This document shows positions 8,266 to 39,001 of a stretch of 40,916 bases of DNA, piece by piece; position 1 is the first letter of the stretch; every line of letters starts with the position of its first letter. The stretch comes from a virus: the IMG/VR virus record IMGVR_UViG_3300020020_000014, positions 1 to 40,916 of that record. The stretch is one strand, 5' to 3'. Both the position numbers and the translations under genes were made by a program. The notes under the pieces were generated by a model. That model did not search any database and was not told the origin of the DNA. It worked only from the letters and a program-made list of their open reading frames with translations.

Positions 8266-8616
8266 TTATCCCCGTAGTCCCTGCGGCGGGAGCATTCCCG
8301 GCTGCGGCATCTGCGGCGCCTGCCCCATCGAGGCGCCCATCGGCATGCCCTGCTGCATTGGCGGCGCCATGCCGGCGCCCTGCGGCGGCACGCCCGGCGC
8401 CAGAGGCATTTGCGCCGGCGGCATGCCGCCACCGATCGGCGCGCCCTGCGGCGGCGCGCCCTGCGGCGGCATCTGCGGCGGGCCAGGCCGCGGCATGGTG
8501 TTCTGCGGCAGTTGCGGCATCGGCGTCTGCGGCGGCGGCGACGAGATGTTCATCAGCGCGCGTGTGATCGCGTCACGCTGGTCGACGACGCCTGTGGCGT
8601 TATACGGGGACGGCAT
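8266..8616 (-). CDS. Pro/Gly/Met/Gln-rich low-complexity protein (116 aa)
   Basis: After a short ordered N-terminus (MPSPYNATGVVDQRDAITRA), nearly the whole protein is Pro, Gly, Met and Gln, in irregular PPQGAP, GMPP and PQMP motifs. It is probably disordered or polyproline II-like. The start overlaps the GNAT-like gene stop as TAATG. No family is recognised. It is the most proline-dense product near the prolyl-hydroxylase-like gene, so it is one possible substrate; that is speculation. Confidence 0.7.
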   Translation of the reverse strand: MPSPYNATGVVDQRDAITRALMNISSPPPQTPMPQLPQNTMPRPGPPQMPPQGAPPQGAPIGGGMPPAQMPLAPGVPPQGAGMAPPMQQGMPMGASMGQAPQMPQPGMLPPQGLRG

Positions 8617-9101
8617 TATGCGGCCTCTCTGGTTGCGACCTGCAGGACATCGCGATGGTGTCCGAGCCGCCGTGTGAATTTGCTTTCTTCCCACGCCTCG
8701 CGCGACAGCGTGCAGACGACGCCATCCTTGTCGCGGCCGAGCAGGCGCGGAATGAGCTTGAGCGTGTAATTGAGCGCATTGAGCTGCCTCAGTAGCCTCT
8801 CGTCGTCGGCCGCAGACATCTGCAGCATCATCTGACAGCCGACCTGCAGGAACGGGTACTGGTACATGCGCTTGATGGTTTCTCGCGTCATCCACTGTTT
8901 GCCGGGAAGCGCCGCGGCCGACATCTCGATCACGCCGGCCTCCGGGTTCCAGTTGTGATAGACCAGGCCAGCGATCAGGTTGTGGCCTTCGATGACGCCG
9001 ATCGTCTTGCACTTGCCGAAGCCGCGATTACGGCAGGCAGGGATCATCGAGGCCACGAAGCCCGCAATAATCTCATCGTGCCCGTAGACGTAATCAAGCA
9101 T
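8616..9101 (-). CDS. GNAT-fold acetyltransferase-like protein (161 aa)
   Basis: The layout fits a compact GNAT fold: IGVIEGHNLIAGLVYHNW as beta2-beta3 with an adjacent Gly, IEMSAAA as beta4, then a helix and a degenerate C-terminal half. The canonical Q/RxxGxG/A acetyl-CoA loop is not clear, so activity is uncertain. GNAT-like proteins occur among internal virion proteins of short-tailed phages (T7 gp13 region), which fits this position. ATG 9101 is preferred over the upstream in-frame start because GGGAGA lies at good distance; it overlaps the upstream gene by 8 bp. Confidence 0.6.
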   Translation of the reverse strand: MLDYVYGHDEIIAGFVASMIPACRNRGFGKCKTIGVIEGHNLIAGLVYHNWNPEAGVIEMSAAALPGKQWMTRETIKRMYQYPFLQVGCQMMLQMSAADDERLLRQLNALNYTLKLIPRLLGRDKDGVVCTLSREAWEESKFTRRLGHHRDVLQVATREAA

Positions 9102-9576
9102 CGACGTCTCCCTTGATCTCGTACAAGGCAGAGACAACCCTCGGCAGGCTCTTGGCGGCGCCCTGGTCCATCAGGTTGGCGACCTCGATCTCGAGCAGGT
9201 CGGCCAGGTCCGTTGGCGACAGGCCGATGACGCCGTGACCGAGCCGGTGATTGACGTGGTACGGCGCGCCACCCTCAACGGCCTCCACCAGCGCCCGCGG
9301 CCGGTTGCAGGAGCAAAAGACATACGCCAGCCACTCGGCTTTCTTGCCAATCAGGCCGGCGACAAGGTCGCGCTCGGTGCGCAGCACTGCCGAGTGCTGG
9401 AATGCGTTGGTGCCGTAGATCGAGTGAAACAGCCCCGCCAGGCAGACGTAGTTGGCGGCGCCGTCGCGCTTCAGCAGGTTGTAGGTGCCGACGAGGTGCT
9501 CATAGAACGTCCGCCCGGAGTGCTTGGTGTCACCCGCCCGCGAACGCACAAACGCCTCGATCTTGCTATCCAGCAT
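9094..9576 (-). CDS. DUF6817-like protein (160 aa)
   Basis: The core LAGLFHSIYGTNAF, followed by an Arg-rich segment and IGKKAEWLAYVFC, matches my recollection of the DUF6817 family, a helical, HD-like fold of unknown function. The His-Ser pair (FHS) and an upstream His in YEHLVGTY could be metal ligands. It overlaps the oxygenase gene by 11 bp and the GNAT-like gene by 8 bp, so the three are co-translated. Role unknown; co-occurrence suggests involvement in modifying or maturing a virion or host component. Confidence 0.6.
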   Translation of the reverse strand: MLDSKIEAFVRSRAGDTKHSGRTFYEHLVGTYNLLKRDGAANYVCLAGLFHSIYGTNAFQHSAVLRTERDLVAGLIGKKAEWLAYVFCSCNRPRALVEAVEGGAPYHVNHRLGHGVIGLSPTDLADLLEIEVANLMDQGAAKSLPRVVSALYEIKGDVDA

Positions 9577-10156
9577 TGAGCGTGTCCGTCTTGAACATCA
9601 GTGTGACCCGCAGCACCGGGCAGGTTCGGGAGAGGCCGCGCGCGACGTGCGGGATCCTGCCGTCGAAGATCACCATGCGGTTGGGGCGCGGGTAGACGCT
9701 GGCAACAATGTCGTCGCGCTCCTGATTGAAAAACACCGTCTCGCCGCCCCAATTCGGTTCCCAGGTGTCGTGCGGGTAGTACACCGTGGTGTAGGTATTC
9801 TGCAGGCCGGTGTCGGTGTGCAACGTGCCGTCGCTGCCATAGGTGTGGCCGTTGGCGTAGCAGCGAATGAGGCGGTGCCCTGGCGGCAACTCGGCGGCGA
9901 GAAGGTGCCAGACTTTGCGGATGACGGGGAACGGCTCGAGCTCGGCCTCGCAGTCGTAGGCGAGGCCGTCGCCGCCGGCCTTTGTGTAGCCGGCGAAGTG
10001 GCGATGCCAGAATGCAAACGGATCCTTCTTGCCGCGCGACCGCCAGCCGAATTTCCAGCCGTCGCCGTTCAGGTACTCGTTCACCTCAAGGCGCATGTCG
10101 TCGGCCAGGATGTCGTCCTGAACGTGCAGCAGCCGGTCTGTCACCCGGTCAAGCAT
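9566..10156 (-). CDS. 2-oxoglutarate/Fe(II) oxygenase, prolyl-4-hydroxylase-like (196 aa)
   Basis: The double-stranded beta-helix iron site is visible: HTD (His113, Asp115) in LHTDTG and His170 in DGRIPHVARG. Arg183 in LRVTLMFK lies at the position that binds 2-oxoglutarate. WGGETVFF and RPNRMVIFDG match the conserved P4H-type strands between them. The enzyme should couple 2-oxoglutarate decarboxylation to hydroxylation, in prolyl-hydroxylase relatives of proline. Its ATG overlaps the stop of a Pro/Gly-repeat protein (TAATG), and the genome also encodes two collagen-like tail proteins, which makes phage structural proteins the obvious candidate substrates. A host target is the alternative. 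Confidence 0.88.
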   Translation of the reverse strand: MLDRVTDRLLHVQDDILADDMRLEVNEYLNGDGWKFGWRSRGKKDPFAFWHRHFAGYTKAGGDGLAYDCEAELEPFPVIRKVWHLLAAELPPGHRLIRCYANGHTYGSDGTLHTDTGLQNTYTTVYYPHDTWEPNWGGETVFFNQERDDIVASVYPRPNRMVIFDGRIPHVARGLSRTCPVLRVTLMFKTDTLNAG

Positions 10157-11871
10157 TACCAGCCTCCGTCGCCGCTGTCGCCATCGCCACTGTCGCCAGC
10201 GCCGGCATCACCGCCTGTGTCGCCGTCGCCGGTGTCGCCGTCGCCGGTGTCGCCGTCGCCGGTGTCGCCGTCGCCGGTGTCGCCGACATCGCCCGTATCG
10301 GCGCCTTCACCGGGGCCTGCATCCTCGCCGGTGCCGGGATCTCCGGTGGCGCCGCCGGGAGTGCCAGTAGCTTCGCCTGTGCCGGGATCTCCGGTGGCGC
10401 CGACATCACCGACATCACCGACATCACCGACATCACCGACATCACCGACATCACCTACGTCGCCCTCACCAGTGCCGGGGTCGCCCATGCCGGGGTCGCC
10501 CATCATGCCGTCTGGCCCGAAGCCAACAGCTGGGCCAAACCCACTGATCGTGCCCTCAAACCCTTCCGGCCCATTCGGGCCGAAACCCTCAAAGCCTTCC
10601 GGCCCGAAACCAAAGCCGATATTGCCGATGCCCTCATAGCCGACGGCGTCGTCGCTGATATTGCCAATGGTCGCCGTAGTGGACGGCCCAAAGCCCTCAA
10701 GGCCCGTGACATCACTGACGGCGACGTTGCCGATGTCGCTGATGTTGCTCACCACGCCCATGTCCGCGAGATCGGCCTGGAAGCCAAAGTCCGTCATGCT
10801 CTGAGTAACGGATGGCGCCGCGAAGCCAATCGGCCCCGGCACCGCTGACAGGTTGGACGGCGGGCCGTGGAAGCCCTGCATGCTAAGGCCCAGATCGGTT
10901 TGCGCCGTAAGGCCCATCGGGGTCGATACAGCCATCGCCTGCGCGGGATTTGACATCGTGACAGATGATGGCGGGCCGGGAGGAGCCGGCGCATCCGGTG
11001 CGTCGACAGGGTCTGGCGCGTCCACTGTCACGGCATCGAGCTGGGTGACGTTCGGATTTGCCAAGGCGACGTTTTCCATCGCCCTGTCGGTCAGGGAGGT
11101 GAGGTCAGGCATATTCGGCGTTGGTGTCGGCGCGACCGCTGGCGGGTCAGGCTGTATCGATATTGTCTGTACAGGCGTCGGCGAAGTGTTGACGTCAGGG
11201 GTGGCGACATCCTGCACCGTTGGCGTCACGTCAGGCGCAAGCCCGTGCATCGTACTGACGGTGTTCGTCGGCGTTGCCGGGTCGCCCTTGTTGGTGCCGA
11301 CGCTGGTCTGCGTGGCCGCCGTGGCGGTCGGGGCCGCCATGTTGACGCCCTTATTGACGGAAGCAGGGTCTGGTGCCGCGGGTGTTGGTCCCATTGGGTC
11401 GTTAACATCATTCCAACCCACGGGCGGATTGGCGATGGTATCAACCGCGACAGCCTGATCGTGCTGTGATGGTGGTGCAGCCGGTGGCGCAGCCGGCGTG
11501 GATGGCGTGGATGTCTGGTCAGGCGATGACGCAAAGCCAACAGGCGCGCCCGGAGGCGCCGCCGGCGTGCCCTCGTTGCTGCTGACGTCGCCTATGGTGG
11601 GACCGGCGTCGCCGGACGGGCCGCCGCCACTGCCCTGCATCATCATCTCGCGCGCAATGGCGTCGCGGCGCGCCTGCACGGGGTCCGCACCCAGCACGTC
11701 GGCGGACGGGCCCGCGATCGGCGACTGATACCACGGATCGGCCTTGGGCGGCGTCTTGAGGTTCTTGTCCATCCACCGCTTGAACGCAGCGACGCTGACG
11801 GGATCCATCGGATTGTAGTAGGGCGCGAACAGCCCGCCCATTGCCCCTGTCTCATCGTAGCCTGTCGGCAT
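10156..11871 (-). CDS. Pro/Ala/Asp/Gly-rich repeat protein, probably virion-associated (571 aa)
   Basis: The first ~70 residues look ordered (FKRWMDKNLK, DPWYQSP). Residues ~90-330 are Pro/Ala/Thr/Val/Asp-rich and probably disordered. Residues ~375-470 have a loose GFGPEGFEG repeat. Residues ~465-565 are almost entirely Gly/Asp/Thr/Pro, with seven GDV triplets and then GDGDT pentads. Two exact DNA minisatellites underlie these (10402-10455 and 10217-10276). The very acidic Gly-repeat C-terminus could bind divalent cations or form an extended stalk. It follows the tail nozzle gene by 10 bp with a GAGGGG Shine-Dalgarno. No family recognised. Confidence 0.75.
   Translation of the reverse strand: MPTGYDETGAMGGLFAPYYNPMDPVSVAAFKRWMDKNLKTPPKADPWYQSPIAGPSADVLGADPVQARRDAIAREMMMQGSGGGPSGDAGPTIGDVSSNEGTPAAPPGAPVGFASSPDQTSTPSTPAAPPAAPPSQHDQAVAVDTIANPPVGWNDVNDPMGPTPAAPDPASVNKGVNMAAPTATAATQTSVGTNKGDPATPTNTVSTMHGLAPDVTPTVQDVATPDVNTSPTPVQTISIQPDPPAVAPTPTPNMPDLTSLTDRAMENVALANPNVTQLDAVTVDAPDPVDAPDAPAPPGPPSSVTMSNPAQAMAVSTPMGLTAQTDLGLSMQGFHGPPSNLSAVPGPIGFAAPSVTQSMTDFGFQADLADMGVVSNISDIGNVAVSDVTGLEGFGPSTTATIGNISDDAVGYEGIGNIGFGFGPEGFEGFGPNGPEGFEGTISGFGPAVGFGPDGMMGDPGMGDPGTGEGDVGDVGDVGDVGDVGDVGDVGATGDPGTGEATGTPGGATGDPGTGEDAGPGEGADTGDVGDTGDGDTGDGDTGDGDTGDGDTGGDAGAGDSGDGDSGDGGW
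10217..10276. repeat. 15-bp minisatellite, four exact units
   Basis: GTGTCGCCGTCGCCG is repeated at 10217-10231, 10232-10246, 10247-10261 and 10262-10276, with a degenerate fifth copy after it. On the coding strand it specifies GDGDT pentads. Copy number is likely to vary by slippage without loss of frame. Confidence 0.9.
10402..10455. repeat. 9-bp minisatellite, six exact units
   Basis: Six perfect GACATCACC units in tandem, encoding Gly-Asp-Val triplets on the minus strand; a seventh, diverged unit (TACGTCGCC) follows. In-frame expansion and contraction is expected. Confidence 0.93.
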
Positions 11872-13580: not shown

Positions 13581-14357
13581 TCAGCCCCACTTTCCGGGTG
13601 CGCTTTCGAGCGCGGTTACGCGCGCCTCCAGCGTGGCGATCAGCCCGTCGACATACGTCTTGGACGCCTTCTCTAGGTCTAGCTCCTGCACCGCCGCCTG
13701 CACGTTAATGGCGGCGATGTCGCCTATCGGAGAGAACGACACGCCGCTGGCCACCGTCGAGCCTGCCGGGCCGACCGGCCCCTGAATGCCCTGCGGTCCC
13801 TGCAGGCCCGTGGCGCCTGTCGCGCCCGTCGCGCCTGCCGCGCCGGTGTCACCCTTGACGCCCTGCGGGCCCTGCGCGCCGGCGGGGCCAGCAGCACCCG
13901 TGGTGCCGGGAATGCCCTGCGTGCCTGTATCGCCCTTGACGCCCTGCGGGCCCTGCGCGCCGGTCGCGCCGGGCGTACCCGCCGCGCCTGCCGCGCCTGC
14001 CGCGCCCGTGGGGCCGATCGGCCCCTGCGCGCCCGTCGCCCCGGTCGGCCCCGGCGGTCCCTGAATAGGCCCGGCGTTGATCCACACCGCCGTCTCTGTA
14101 TCCCACACCCACATATCGCCCGTCGCGGTGACGACGTAGGCGTCGCCATCGGCGTTGCCGGTCGGCGGCAGTGCCCCGACCGTCGCGACCTGCCCCTTGA
14201 AGTTGATGCCGGTACCGGCAGCGCCCTGCGGCCCGGTCGGGCCGGTTACGCCCTGCACCCCGGCGGGGCCTGTCGGACCCGCAGGCCCCTGCGGCCCGGT
14301 CAGTGCGAGATCCTGCCAACCTGCGGTAGTGCGGACCCTGACGGCGTAGTTCGTCAT
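13581..14357 (-). CDS. Collagen-like tail protein (258 aa)
   Basis: Gly-X-Y repeats run through residues 21-49 and 100-199, interrupted by a small domain at 50-99 ([15 protein letters not shown] ... AGPIQGPPG). Most triplets are [12 protein letters not shown] and GAA. Proline in the Y position is rare (GPP, GTP, GIP). The C-terminus has [18 protein letters not shown] followed by a heptad-like helix ending [10 protein letters not shown], probably a trimerisation coiled coil. Phage collagen-like proteins form trimeric rods in fibres. ATG 14357 overlaps the upstream gene by ATGA and is preferred over an in-frame start 20 codons earlier. Confidence 0.88.
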
Positions 14358-16271: not shown

Positions 16272-18740
16272 TCATGTCGTATCGATCCACACGTCGCCGG
16301 TCGCCGGAGACCCCGGCGCAGTCGAGGCCACGGTGATGGTTGGTATCTTCTTCCACGCGAGGTTTTCGCGGGCGTAGCTGTCGCCGTCGTTAGGCGCGTC
16401 GGTGATGCCACTGGCGGGCAGCGTCTGCCACGTCTTGTCCCCGCGCCAGAACTGGGACGTCGTGCCTCCTGCAATGGTCGGCTCTTTTGTGTCTACATAC
16501 TGCTTGGTCGCCGCCTCAAGTGGGTTGGCCGGATCGGCGGGCAACACGACCGCACTGCCGAATGTAGCGATGCCAGTTAGCCGGTCTATGGTGAGTGCGG
16601 CACCCAGATGCGCCCCAGCGTCGCTGTAGCGCCGATAGGTGAAGTTGGCGTTGGTCGCGTCGACGTCGAAAGCCCAGCGTCGCGCCGCGCCCACCTGAAA
16701 GAAGAACGACGACCCCGACCCGGCTGCTGCCTCTAGGTAAAATTGCGGCGAGGTTTTCGCAATCGACAGGTTTCCCGTCAGTGCGCCGCCGGAAAGACGC
16801 AAATGCTCGGCGTCTACCTCAGTGATGGCGTCTTGAACGTTAGTCGCGGCGATGTTGATGCTGGGGGCAAACGTTACGCTCGCGGCCGTTCCACCCCCGC
16901 CGCCGCCGCCCGCCGCCACCGCCGCCGTGACAAATGCCGTCGTCGCGAGTTTCCCCGTGCTGTCTCCCGCCGTCGGCGTGAGGCCGTAGGCTAGGGTCTT
17001 GAACTCGGTAACCGCGTTGCCGATGACGACCGTATGCGCGCCCGGCGGGCCAATCTGAAACTCGTATGTCGAATTGAGCGCGTTGAACGAGCTTGCGCGG
17101 CACTCGAAACGAATGTTGCTCTGGACGGCGTTAGCCTTGAAGACGAAGTCTACAAGCTCCGCACCGGCTACGGGGAACGTCTCGAATATCGCTCCGAGAA
17201 CGCCGGGCTCGGCCATCAGGCCGAGGCGGGAGGTGCCGTAAGTGCCGCTGCTGTTTCCGACGTAGACCGCCGTCGGCGCGCTTAGTCCCGTGCTTGCGCC
17301 CAGCGCGATGCCACCATTGACCGTCAGCTTGTCGGTGGTCTTGTTGTAGGTGAGGCCCGCATCGCCGCCGAAGGTCGTGGCGTCGTTGAACTGAATTTGC
17401 GTGTCCGCGCCGCCGGGGTTGCCGCCACCGCCGCCGCTGCCCAACGGCGTACCATTGACAGTAGGAGTGACCTTGAAGTCGGTGACGCCGGTAGAGCGTT
17501 TGATCACCAGCGCGGTGTCGAGATAGCCGCCCGCGTCGTCGAAGCGGAGAATAGAAAAATCGGACCCGGCGTTGCTGCCGCTTTCCGCTGTATTGTCACC
17601 GGGTGAGATATACCAGCGTTGCAGGCCATTCATCTGGCCGCCGATGACGCTGAACTGCCCCGATGCCGCCTTGTTGAGATTGAACGTCGGCGTGACCTTG
17701 GCGATATTAAAATCACCCGTCATCGTGTCGCCAGCCTTCAACAGCCGGGCGGCGAGATCGGTCGTCAGGTTGGTGACATCGCTCTGCGGATGCGTGTGCG
17801 TGGCAGGCGCGAAGTTTACTGGATTGAAATGCCCCGAATGCCACAGCGTGTGAGCGACCGCGCCGAACGACCAGCCGCCGACCTTGAACTGGTTGTCGGT
17901 GTCGAGGCCGAAGTAGGCAGCGAACTTGTCGGGCCGGTGGAAGGTCATGAAGGCGGCATTGCTGTCGCCGCCCGCGCCAATGATCTGAGTGCTGTAGATG
18001 GTGGTGGGCGCTCCGGCGATGTCGCCCGTCGAGGGCACCATCGTCAGCACGCCGGTCATCTGGTCGCCAATGCGCTTGACCTTCTCGGCGTCCACCTCCA
18101 CCAGCGCCGCCTGCACGTTGGTGGCGGCGATCTCACCTGCTGGCGTGAAGGTGACACTGGCAGCCGAGCCGCCGCCACCGCCGCCGGTGACCACGCTCCA
18201 CGCGGCGTCCTGACGGGCGTATTGCTGGCCGTCGATCGGCGCGTCGTCGAGGTGCAGCGGTGCGCCCTGATCGGTGTCGATCCAGAGCGCGCCAACCTCT
18301 ATCGTAACCGGCTCGGCGGGCTGCTCGTAGACTTCTACCGCGCCTTCGGGGCCCTCGGGGCCAATCGGACCGGTCAGTCCCGTGGGGCCGGTAGGCCCCG
18401 TGGGGCCAGTCGGCCCCGCATTGCCCTGCGTGCCCTGAATACCTTGCGGGCCGGTATCGCCCTTGACGCCTTGCGGACCTTGCGAACCCGTGTCGCCTTT
18501 GACACCCTGCACACCCTGCGGGCCGGTATTGCCCTGCACGCCCTGCGGCCCCTGCGGCCCCGGCACTGTGCTGTTGGCACCCGTGTCGCCCTTGACGCCC
18601 TGAGGCCCAGTCGGTCCTTGCGGGCCGACCGGCCCCGGCACCGTGCTGGGTTCTCCCACTTCACCCTTCGGCCCCGGAGGCCCCATCGGCCCCTGCAGGG
18701 CGACGTTATAGATTGATGGAGGCGGACTTATGAAGGCCAT
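16272..18740 (-). CDS. Large collagen-like tail fibre protein (822 aa)
   Basis: A short N-terminal anchor ([16 protein letters not shown]) is followed by Gly-X-Y collagen repeats at residues ~17-133, rich in GPQ, GPT, GVK and GDT. A hinge ([22 protein letters not shown]) leads to beta-rich shaft modules. The motif ASVTFxPxxxIAATNVQ appears twice (~200 and ~640), each followed by a VDAE helix, and a relative occurs in the 258-aa collagen-like protein. GDTMTGDF and GDQMTGVL are typical phage fibre repeats. The C-terminus ends [14 protein letters not shown]. Start ATG 18740 overlaps the adaptor gene by 13 bp. Confidence 0.88.
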
Positions 18741-38341: not shown

Positions 38342-38584
38342 TCATGACGCGCATCCCGCTTCAGTAGGAGTGCGCGCTGCCAGATCGATCAGAGCTTCAG
38401 CGTTCACTTCCTCCTTGATCGCAACGTCAGTTGCTAAGATCGGCGACCACCATTCGGCGGGAACGCTGTCGCGTTGCCACCATTTGGATACAGCGGACGG
38501 TTTTGCGCCGATCTCGGCCGCCATCGCCTCCCTGGTTCCCCAGAGTTCGATGAGCTGACGGAAGGAATTGATTTGGGCTGCCAT
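38342..38584 (-). CDS. Cro/carph-isopro-type HTH protein (80 aa)
   Basis: Residues ~8-48 form a helix-turn-helix: WGTREAMAAEIGAKPSAVSKWW followed by QRDSVPAEWW. A helix-turn-helix followed by a W-x-R-x-x-(I/V)-P-x-x-W segment is typical of the carph-isopro/YdaS-like proteins that act as Cro in many proteobacterial phages. It is the first leftward gene, divergent from the repressor, with predicted operators O3 and O4 in its promoter. The predicted start point lies at or within a base or two of the ATG, so the transcript may be leaderless. Confidence 0.82.
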   Translation of the reverse strand: MAAQINSFRQLIELWGTREAMAAEIGAKPSAVSKWWQRDSVPAEWWSPILATDVAIKEEVNAEALIDLAARTPTEAGCAS

Positions 38585-38590
38585 GACACG

Positions 38591-38619
38591 TCTGTAGGAC
38601 GATCCGTCCTTAAACGCAA
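38591..38619 (-). promoter_or_regulatory. Predicted leftward early promoter
   Basis: On the minus strand TTGCGT (38619-38614), a 17-nt spacer and TACAGA (38596-38591). The boxes are weak matches, but operator O3 lies in the spacer as at the other predicted promoters, and the ATG of the Cro-type gene follows at 38584. Confidence 0.45.
38596..38610. promoter_or_regulatory. Predicted repressor operator O3
   Basis: Perfect-half-site palindrome AGGAC-GATCC-GTCCT in the divergent immunity region, inside the leftward promoter spacer. Confidence 0.7.
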
Positions 38620-38633
38620 GGCCAATCTGTCCT
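38619..38633. promoter_or_regulatory. Predicted repressor operator O4
   Basis: AGGCC-AATCT-GTCCT, one mismatch from the consensus. Centre-to-centre distance to O3 is 23 bp, the same as between O6 and O7, which suggests cooperative binding on one helix face (about two turns). Confidence 0.6.
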
Positions 38634-38667
38634 TAGACGGGCGAACATCGTTAGGACATAATGTCCC
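38634..38667 (+). promoter_or_regulatory. Predicted repressor promoter overlapping operator O5
   Basis: TAGACG (38634-38639), 17-nt spacer, CATAAT (38657-38662). The -10 box is inside operator O5 (AGGAC-ATAAT-GTCCC, 38653-38667). The repressor ATG is at 38669, about where transcription would begin, so the mRNA is probably leaderless and autoregulated. Confidence 0.55.
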
Positions 38668-38668
38668 C

Positions 38669-39001
38669 ATGCCCGAGTCGGACCAAAAAGCTCTTTACGA
38701 GCAAGCCTTTATCAAGCGGGTAAAGGCGGCCAGAGTTGCCACTGGAAAAAAGCAGTGGCAAGTCGCCGAGCTAATGGGCATCAAACAGGACCAATATAAG
38801 CATTATGAGACAGGCCGGGTGATCCCGCATCACCTGATCGGTCGTTTTTGCCTCATTTGCAACATAGAGCCGGGCTGGCTCATCACCGGCAAAGGGCCAA
38901 AACCGCTCTTGCCGCTGACCACTGTGCCGCCCGAGCCGATCGTGGCGCCCAGCTTGCCCGACTTCAAGCGCGACAAGCGCCGGTTTCAGCGCGAAAACTA
39001 G
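38669..39001 (+). CDS. Phage repressor, HTH XRE/CI-type (110 aa)
   Basis: Residues ~14-70 are an XRE-family helix-turn-helix (FIKRVKAARVATGKKQWQVAEL, then GIKQDQYKHYETGR and IEPGWLITGKG). The C-terminal ~40 residues are Pro-rich then strongly basic (DFKRDKRRFQREN). There is no LexA/S24 peptidase domain, so RecA-driven self-cleavage is not expected. It is divergent from the Cro-type gene and surrounded by the GGAC-N5-GTCC operators, which makes it the probable immunity repressor. Start ATG 38669 follows O5 by 1 bp and has no Shine-Dalgarno at normal spacing. A GANTC (GAGTC) lies just inside the gene. Confidence 0.85.
   Translation: MPESDQKALYEQAFIKRVKAARVATGKKQWQVAELMGIKQDQYKHYETGRVIPHHLIGRFCLICNIEPGWLITGKGPKPLLPLTTVPPEPIVAPSLPDFKRDKRRFQREN

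Follow-up and report, generated by a model that had tools for sequence, protein, structure and literature searches.

A phage 2-oxoglutarate oxygenase paired with a DUF6817 protein, and its association with Gly/Asp-rich tracts

The window analysed here, a 40,916-bp IMG/VR virus record for which no near-identical phage DNA was found in the phage collection searched, encodes in a single genome a predicted prolyl-hydroxylase-type Fe(II)/2-oxoglutarate (2OG) oxygenase and two collagen-like proteins, and the question raised by this locus is what the oxygenase acts upon. A preliminary description of the sequence had proposed that the phage hydroxylates its own collagen. On balance, and with no great confidence, we regard it as probable that the oxygenase acts on a polypeptide together with the protein of the overlapping DUF6817 gene, and that its likely target is a Gly/Asp-rich tract at the C-terminus of a protein encoded immediately upstream. 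All of these genes belong to a minus-strand late operon that includes genes for terminase, portal, major head protein, collagen-like tail fibres and further structural proteins (Table 1). Five of them, transcribed in the order 571-aa protein, oxygenase, DUF6817 protein, GNAT protein and 116-aa protein, form a compact series in which every gene overlaps its successor. The gene of the 571-aa protein, correctly described earlier as a Gly/Pro/Asp-repeat gene overlapping the oxygenase, ends on the first base of the oxygenase gene (TAATG), and the DUF6817 gene, which that description had passed over and which is a near-constant partner of the oxygenase elsewhere, overlaps the oxygenase 3' end by 11 bases. 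The start sequences of three genes in the cassette region are ATGCTTGA, ATGCTGGA and ATGCTTGA. Integrase and repressor-like genes (26-871 and 38474-39001) suggest that the phage is temperate.

Table 1. Genes and regions of the window that bear on the oxygenase, its partner and its candidate substrates.
Feature	Coordinates	Strand	Evidence
Fe(II)/2-oxoglutarate oxygenase, 196 aa, predicted PHD2/PPHD fold class	9566..10156	-	PF13640 2.4e-9 (above cut-off); PHROG 274 3.6e-24; invariant H113, D115, H170, R183; fold of fused relative L011
DUF6817 protein, HD-superfamily fold, oxygenase partner	9094..9576	-	PF20680 7.9e-26; AlphaFold pLDDT 96; Rel/SAH Z ~12, PhnZ Z 8
571-aa Gly/Asp/Pro-rich protein, candidate substrate	10156..11871	-	no family match; stop overlaps oxygenase start
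C-terminal Gly/Asp tract of the 571-aa protein, residues 511-571, ending GDSGDGDSGDGGW; probable modified region	10159..10341	-	tract statistics
GNAT-type acyltransferase, downstream flank of cassette	8616..9101	-	phrog_4470; start ATGCTTGA, as in oxygenase
116-aa Pro/Gly-rich protein, PPQG-type motifs	8266..8616	-	ORF; counterpart retained in L346
Collagen-like tail-fibre-type protein, 44 Gly-X-Y triplets, Pro 16 at X and 3 at Y	13581..14357	-	PF01391 4.2e-21; tail-fibre PHROG
Collagen-like tail fibre, fibritin-type C-terminal match, 37 Gly-X-Y triplets, Pro 19 at X and 2 at Y	16272..18740	-	PF01391 1.4e-10; tail-fibre PHROG

The assignment of the oxygenase, including its iron/2OG site, holds up well: the family matches are clear, and the H113xD115...H170...R183 site is invariant among 13 relatives. 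For the fold, a model of a relative in which oxygenase and DUF6817 are fused in one chain (L011; pLDDT 93) is instructive, as its oxygenase half matches P. putida PPHD (Z 17.5) and human PHD2 (Z 16.9), along with Burkholderia and Pseudomonas 2OG oxygenases at Z ~17. Because this model matches PPHD and PHD2 so closely, the term prolyl-4-hydroxylase-like is correct as a statement about fold, and the predicted structure supports an enzyme of the protein-hydroxylase type. A prolyl-hydroxylase fold leaves the identity of the oxidised residue unfixed. Fold class, HxD...H...R site and likely a polypeptide substrate are held in common with the PHD2/EGLN and PPHD prolyl hydroxylases, whereas the phage-type enzyme is only 12-17% identical to the solved members, is linked to Gly/Asp tracts that mostly lack proline and has an HD-fold partner.

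That this phage prolyl 4-hydroxylase hydroxylates the phage's own collagen-like fibres is a natural first reading, given such a fold in a genome that also encodes two collagen-like proteins; these had been recognised in the preliminary description, and both match PF01391 and tail-fibre PHROGs. The features shared with collagen P4H systems are the HxD...H...R/K Fe(II)/2OG site and the prolyl-hydroxylase-type fold of the L011 model; the accompanying substrate gene is not shared. A family search for PF01391 gave 0 of 15 records that carry relatives of the oxygenase, among them three contigs of ~40 kb with oxygenases 61-69% identical to that of the phage, and this absence is not absolute, since some of the records are fragments. 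The expected co-occurrence of P4H-like and collagen-like genes in related phages is therefore not seen as far as these records go. Proline at the Y position, moreover, is rare: over 81 Gly-X-Y triplets it stands 35 times at X and 5 times at Y (5/40), in agreement with the caveat already attached to the collagen proposal. Collagens of bacteria and viruses do not as a rule favour proline at Y and can be stable unhydroxylated, and proline mostly at X is their usual pattern (PMC3368898). A literature search on phage collagen and hydroxyproline found a single paper, in which no hydroxylation of phage collagen is reported. With the partner and neighbour statistics set out below favouring DUF6817 and Gly/Asp tracts, the gene association lies elsewhere and hydroxylation of the phage collagen appears very improbable.

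The most consistent association of the oxygenase is with DUF6817. Alignment with DUF6817 was used to fetch 80 viral loci, which together with this phage reduce to 54 non-redundant loci; this pattern-based fetching is biased toward the HS motif. Within the non-redundant set an oxygenase lies within 500 bp of DUF6817 in 34 loci, the two are fused in the order oxygenase-DUF6817 in 14 and in the reverse order in 2, both occur in the same locus in 1, and 3 have no oxygenase, so that a 2OG oxygenase and its HD-fold partner are adjacent or fused in 50/54. Fusion in both orders is strong evidence that the two proteins act together. A literature search found no paper on the DUF6817 domain, for which structural comparison is informative. 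Its AlphaFold model is a confident HD-type fold, closest to the hydrolase domains of Rel, small alarmone hydrolases (SAH) and Mesh1 (Z 10.7-12; Rel 7ohg Z 12.0, 2.5 A over 128 residues; SAH 7qoe 11.9) and then to PhnZ and TmpB (Z 7-8; 4n6w 8.2 and 6npa 7.3). The assignment rests on this fold comparison, the HMMER match to the solved HD protein Lmo0812 reaching only E 0.13. Where HD proteins have H, H-D and D, the phage protein has H27, H51-S52 and N134; at the final ligand position viral proteins carry Asn, and the bacterial set either Asn or Asp. The replacement of H-D by H51-S52, together with Asn at the last position, indicates that DUF6817 departs from both the standard ppGpp hydrolases and the standard diiron oxygenases.

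These resemblances also suggest a role in small-molecule or nucleotide metabolism, given the likeness of DUF6817 to (p)ppGpp hydrolases and the way in which a 2OG oxygenase paired with an HD-fold protein recalls phosphonate catabolism by PhnY/PhnZ and TmpA/TmpB, where a 2OG hydroxylase acts in tandem with an HD enzyme (PMC8177086). Like those systems the phage cassette is a gene pair, and PhnZ and TmpB are among the fold matches of its HD-type member. However, its oxygenase comes from a different family than PhnY and TmpA and belongs to the protein-hydroxylase type, and neither the HD aspartate nor the H...HD...H...H...D ligand set of PhnZ-type diiron oxygenases (PMC8177086) is found in DUF6817. 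Relative to the small alarmone hydrolases and the SpoT-Mesh1 HD domains, its best fold matches, it has Asn for the last-ligand Asp and carries HSIYGT where ppGpp hydrolases have HD and the ED pair (HD..ED). The neighbours of standalone bacterial DUF6817 genes are more favourable to this alternative, as they include other 2OG oxygenases (TauD 6/69 and PhyH 2/69) and, in actinobacteria, NRPS genes; taken together, a small-molecule substrate seems unlikely for the phage cassette. In the actinobacterial loci (L229, L233 and L252) the DUF6817 gene adjoins a TauD-type 2OG oxygenase and large upstream ORFs, an NRPS in L229, and these loci may represent a 2OG-DUF6817 pairing in small-molecule biosynthesis. 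The adenylation-domain motif region of the NRPS beside TauD-DUF6817 looks unlike an ordinary amino-acid code.

The second association of the pair is with tracts rich in Gly and Asp, scored among the phage genes as 40-residue stretches with at least 60% Gly+Asp. Of 88 genes that flank the pair, 18 contain such a tract, against none of 290 other genes on the same strand (Fisher p 9e-13, loci within clades being non-independent) and none of 134 genes flanking cyanophage-type oxygenase loci without DUF6817. The tract genes fall upstream of the pair with C-terminal tracts in this phage and in L019, L025, L029, L043 and L054, and downstream with internal tracts in L053, L055, L070 and L096, as well as in L041 and L049. 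Genes of the downstream GGSG.NP family carry the tract in 4/4 cases with the pair and in 0/44 without it; the corresponding comparison for the L066 family covers three loci only. Asp is present in all 32 tracts compared, and Pro is absent from 21 of them. The converse relationship is weak: viral Gly/Asp tracts are common without the pair, which accompanies 3 of 47 tract loci having both flanks, and a general scan for such tracts was set aside as a weak predictor of the pair. No 2OG oxygenase was present in the 25 families listed for 106 neighbours of viral Gly/Asp tracts.

Loci that lack the pair bear on the choice of substrate. L446 and L383 retain tracts and have no pair. In L346 (L346:2365-5123), which has a sibling neighbourhood to that of the phage, the homologue of the tract protein is kept while oxygenase and DUF6817 are both missing, the pair being present or absent as a unit, and the tract gene runs directly into the GNAT gene, overlapping its start. 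Since the three genes of the phage open with ATGCTTGA, ATGCTGGA and ATGCTTGA, the pair could plausibly have been cleanly lost or gained through short repeats. L346 also retains a counterpart of the 116-aa Pro/Gly-rich protein, as do L002 and L003. If the oxygenase were a genuine prolyl hydroxylase, this small protein could be its substrate, being rich in proline and encoded in the same operon three genes downstream of the oxygenase, but its persistence in a locus without oxygenase, and the lack of a counterpart beside most other oxygenase-DUF6817 modules seen, make that reading very improbable.

The same observations on L346 are compatible with a cassette that modifies a host or phage protein encoded elsewhere, as PPHD of P. 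putida acts on EF-Tu, with the Gly/Asp genes serving as recombination-prone, repeat-rich DNA beside which such cargo settles. The tract outlasts the pair at a junction resembling clean loss or gain at ATGCTTGA-type start repeats; the top fold matches of the L011 oxygenase half include the PPHD-EF-Tu complex (4iw3); and the contexts of the pair vary, from structural genes and portal to T4-like genomes in which it lies between clamp-loader-like and RegA-like genes of the replication region with no adjoining tract. A non-neighbour target is possible on this evidence, and we consider it doubtful in view of the bacterial relatives, in which tracts occur in small secreted-looking or double-glycine-leader peptides adjoining the oxygenase, a typical enzyme-precursor arrangement.

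Homologues from bacteria share 35-51% identity with the phage oxygenase (32-34% in one more distant group) and are intermixed with phage sequences in the tree. A tract ORF is present in 15 of 30 bacterial oxygenase loci and in none of 40 control regions from the same genomes (p 2e-7, loci within clades again being non-independent), a contrast that also argues against a non-neighbour target. In L180 (Burkholderia territorii) the pair lies between a bacteriocin-type peptidase ABC exporter gene and HlyD and TolC-like genes, in a locus that also encodes a double-glycine-leader peptide (MRLLNDNELAIPSGG) with the end SDGGDGGDGGDGGGDGGGD. Comparable precursors are found in L197, where a double-glycine leader (ELEPHELALVSGG) is followed by GDGDGGGDGG, and in L471 and L472, which combine MRELNISELSQVYGG-type leaders with Gly/Asp tails. 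L468 encodes two small secreted-looking proteins with the ends GDGGDGGY and GDGGDGGV, and in L458 and L459, which lack DUF6817, an Asp/Gly/His-rich protein of 110 or 116 aa is encoded immediately upstream of an oxygenase that shares 49-51% identity with that of the phage. A radical SAM peptide maturase stands alongside in L189; this match and those to the exporter and HlyD in L180 fall below NCBIfam cut-offs. A double-glycine-leader regex run over the bacterial loci gave 1/12 vs 0/68, the leaders in L180, L471 and L472 having been found by reading the tract ORFs rather than by the regex.

Half of the bacterial oxygenase loci have no tract, and five of these lie near a large exported-looking protein. 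In these five (L461, L462, L464, L466 and L467), which also lack DUF6817, the oxygenase is next to or near a protein of ~0.85-1.15 thousand residues with an autotransporter-barrel-like end where intact. The DUF6817 ORF of L180 (L180:4932-5978, 348 aa) has a C-terminal extension resembling a GNAT acetyltransferase, echoing the GNAT neighbour of the phage cassette.

The reading that we favour, modification of the Gly/Asp tract, can be set out as a sequence of steps. The likely substrate in the phage would be the C-terminal tract of the 571-aa protein, whose gene is translationally coupled to that of the oxygenase and which, from its position among structural genes, we infer to be in the virion. 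The oxygenase would oxidise residues of this tract, most likely Asp at the beta carbon, and the DUF6817 protein, as a degenerate member of the HD fold, may bind the product or perform a second step, as PhnZ does after PhnY. Asp is proposed as the target because it is common to all of the tracts and because beta-hydroxylation of Asp is an established 2OG reaction. RiPP tailoring 2OG oxygenases, which include the CinX-type Asp beta-hydroxylases, offer a parallel, in that the bacterial relatives of the phage enzyme (L180, L189, L197, L471 and L472) are likewise found with double-glycine-leader precursors, bacteriocin-type exporters or a radical SAM peptide maturase, whereas the phage candidate substrate is a large protein from the structural region and has no leader. 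A more speculative extension, which we think unlikely in its entirety, is that phages and bacteriocin-type operons share this tailoring pair and that phages would use it to make multiple beta-hydroxyaspartate sites on Gly/Asp tails of virion proteins, which could bind metal such as iron and, at the host surface, mimic ligands of the siderophore type. If so, these tails would be a protein-encoded version of the phage 'Ferrojan horse' idea.

If the tract is modified, the cassette would amount to a system, assembled from enzymes of peptide natural product pathways, that modifies phage proteins post-translationally. The uncharacterised DUF6817 is now tied to oxygenases in phages, peptide-export operons and NRPS clusters, and even if the proposed substrate is wrong, the pairing steers work away from collagen. 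Viral prolyl 4-hydroxylases have been noted before, with P4HA a common auxiliary gene whose use is described as cryptic (PMC9301287), and for these widespread genes the pairing offers a testable partner and substrate class. The annotated viral enzymes, including cyanophage oxygenases, the P4HA auxiliary genes from the Baltic and the P4H of chlorovirus PBCV-1, share the superfamily of the phage oxygenase, but the cyanophage members of PHROG 274 form a distant branch and have neither DUF6817 nor a Gly/Asp tract adjoining; the cyanophage gene GC742, checked for DUF6817, gave no Pfam match. The PHROG label 'DNA endonuclease V' was rejected for this family since its members match PF13640. The label has spread into RefSeq cyanophage records (NC_006820, NC_015288, NC_013085 and others; L015:5800-6309, L016:5806-6321, L017:5797-6327), where it looks wrong, the S-PM2 member matching PF13640 (2OG oxygenase). 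In cyanomyoviruses up to four 2OG oxygenase genes are clustered right behind a tail-fibre gene (L015:3482-8117 in S-PM2; also L014, L016 and L017), and in S-RSM4 the gene ahead of the cluster encodes a very Gly-rich structural protein; this is possibly another cluster for the modification of tail proteins.
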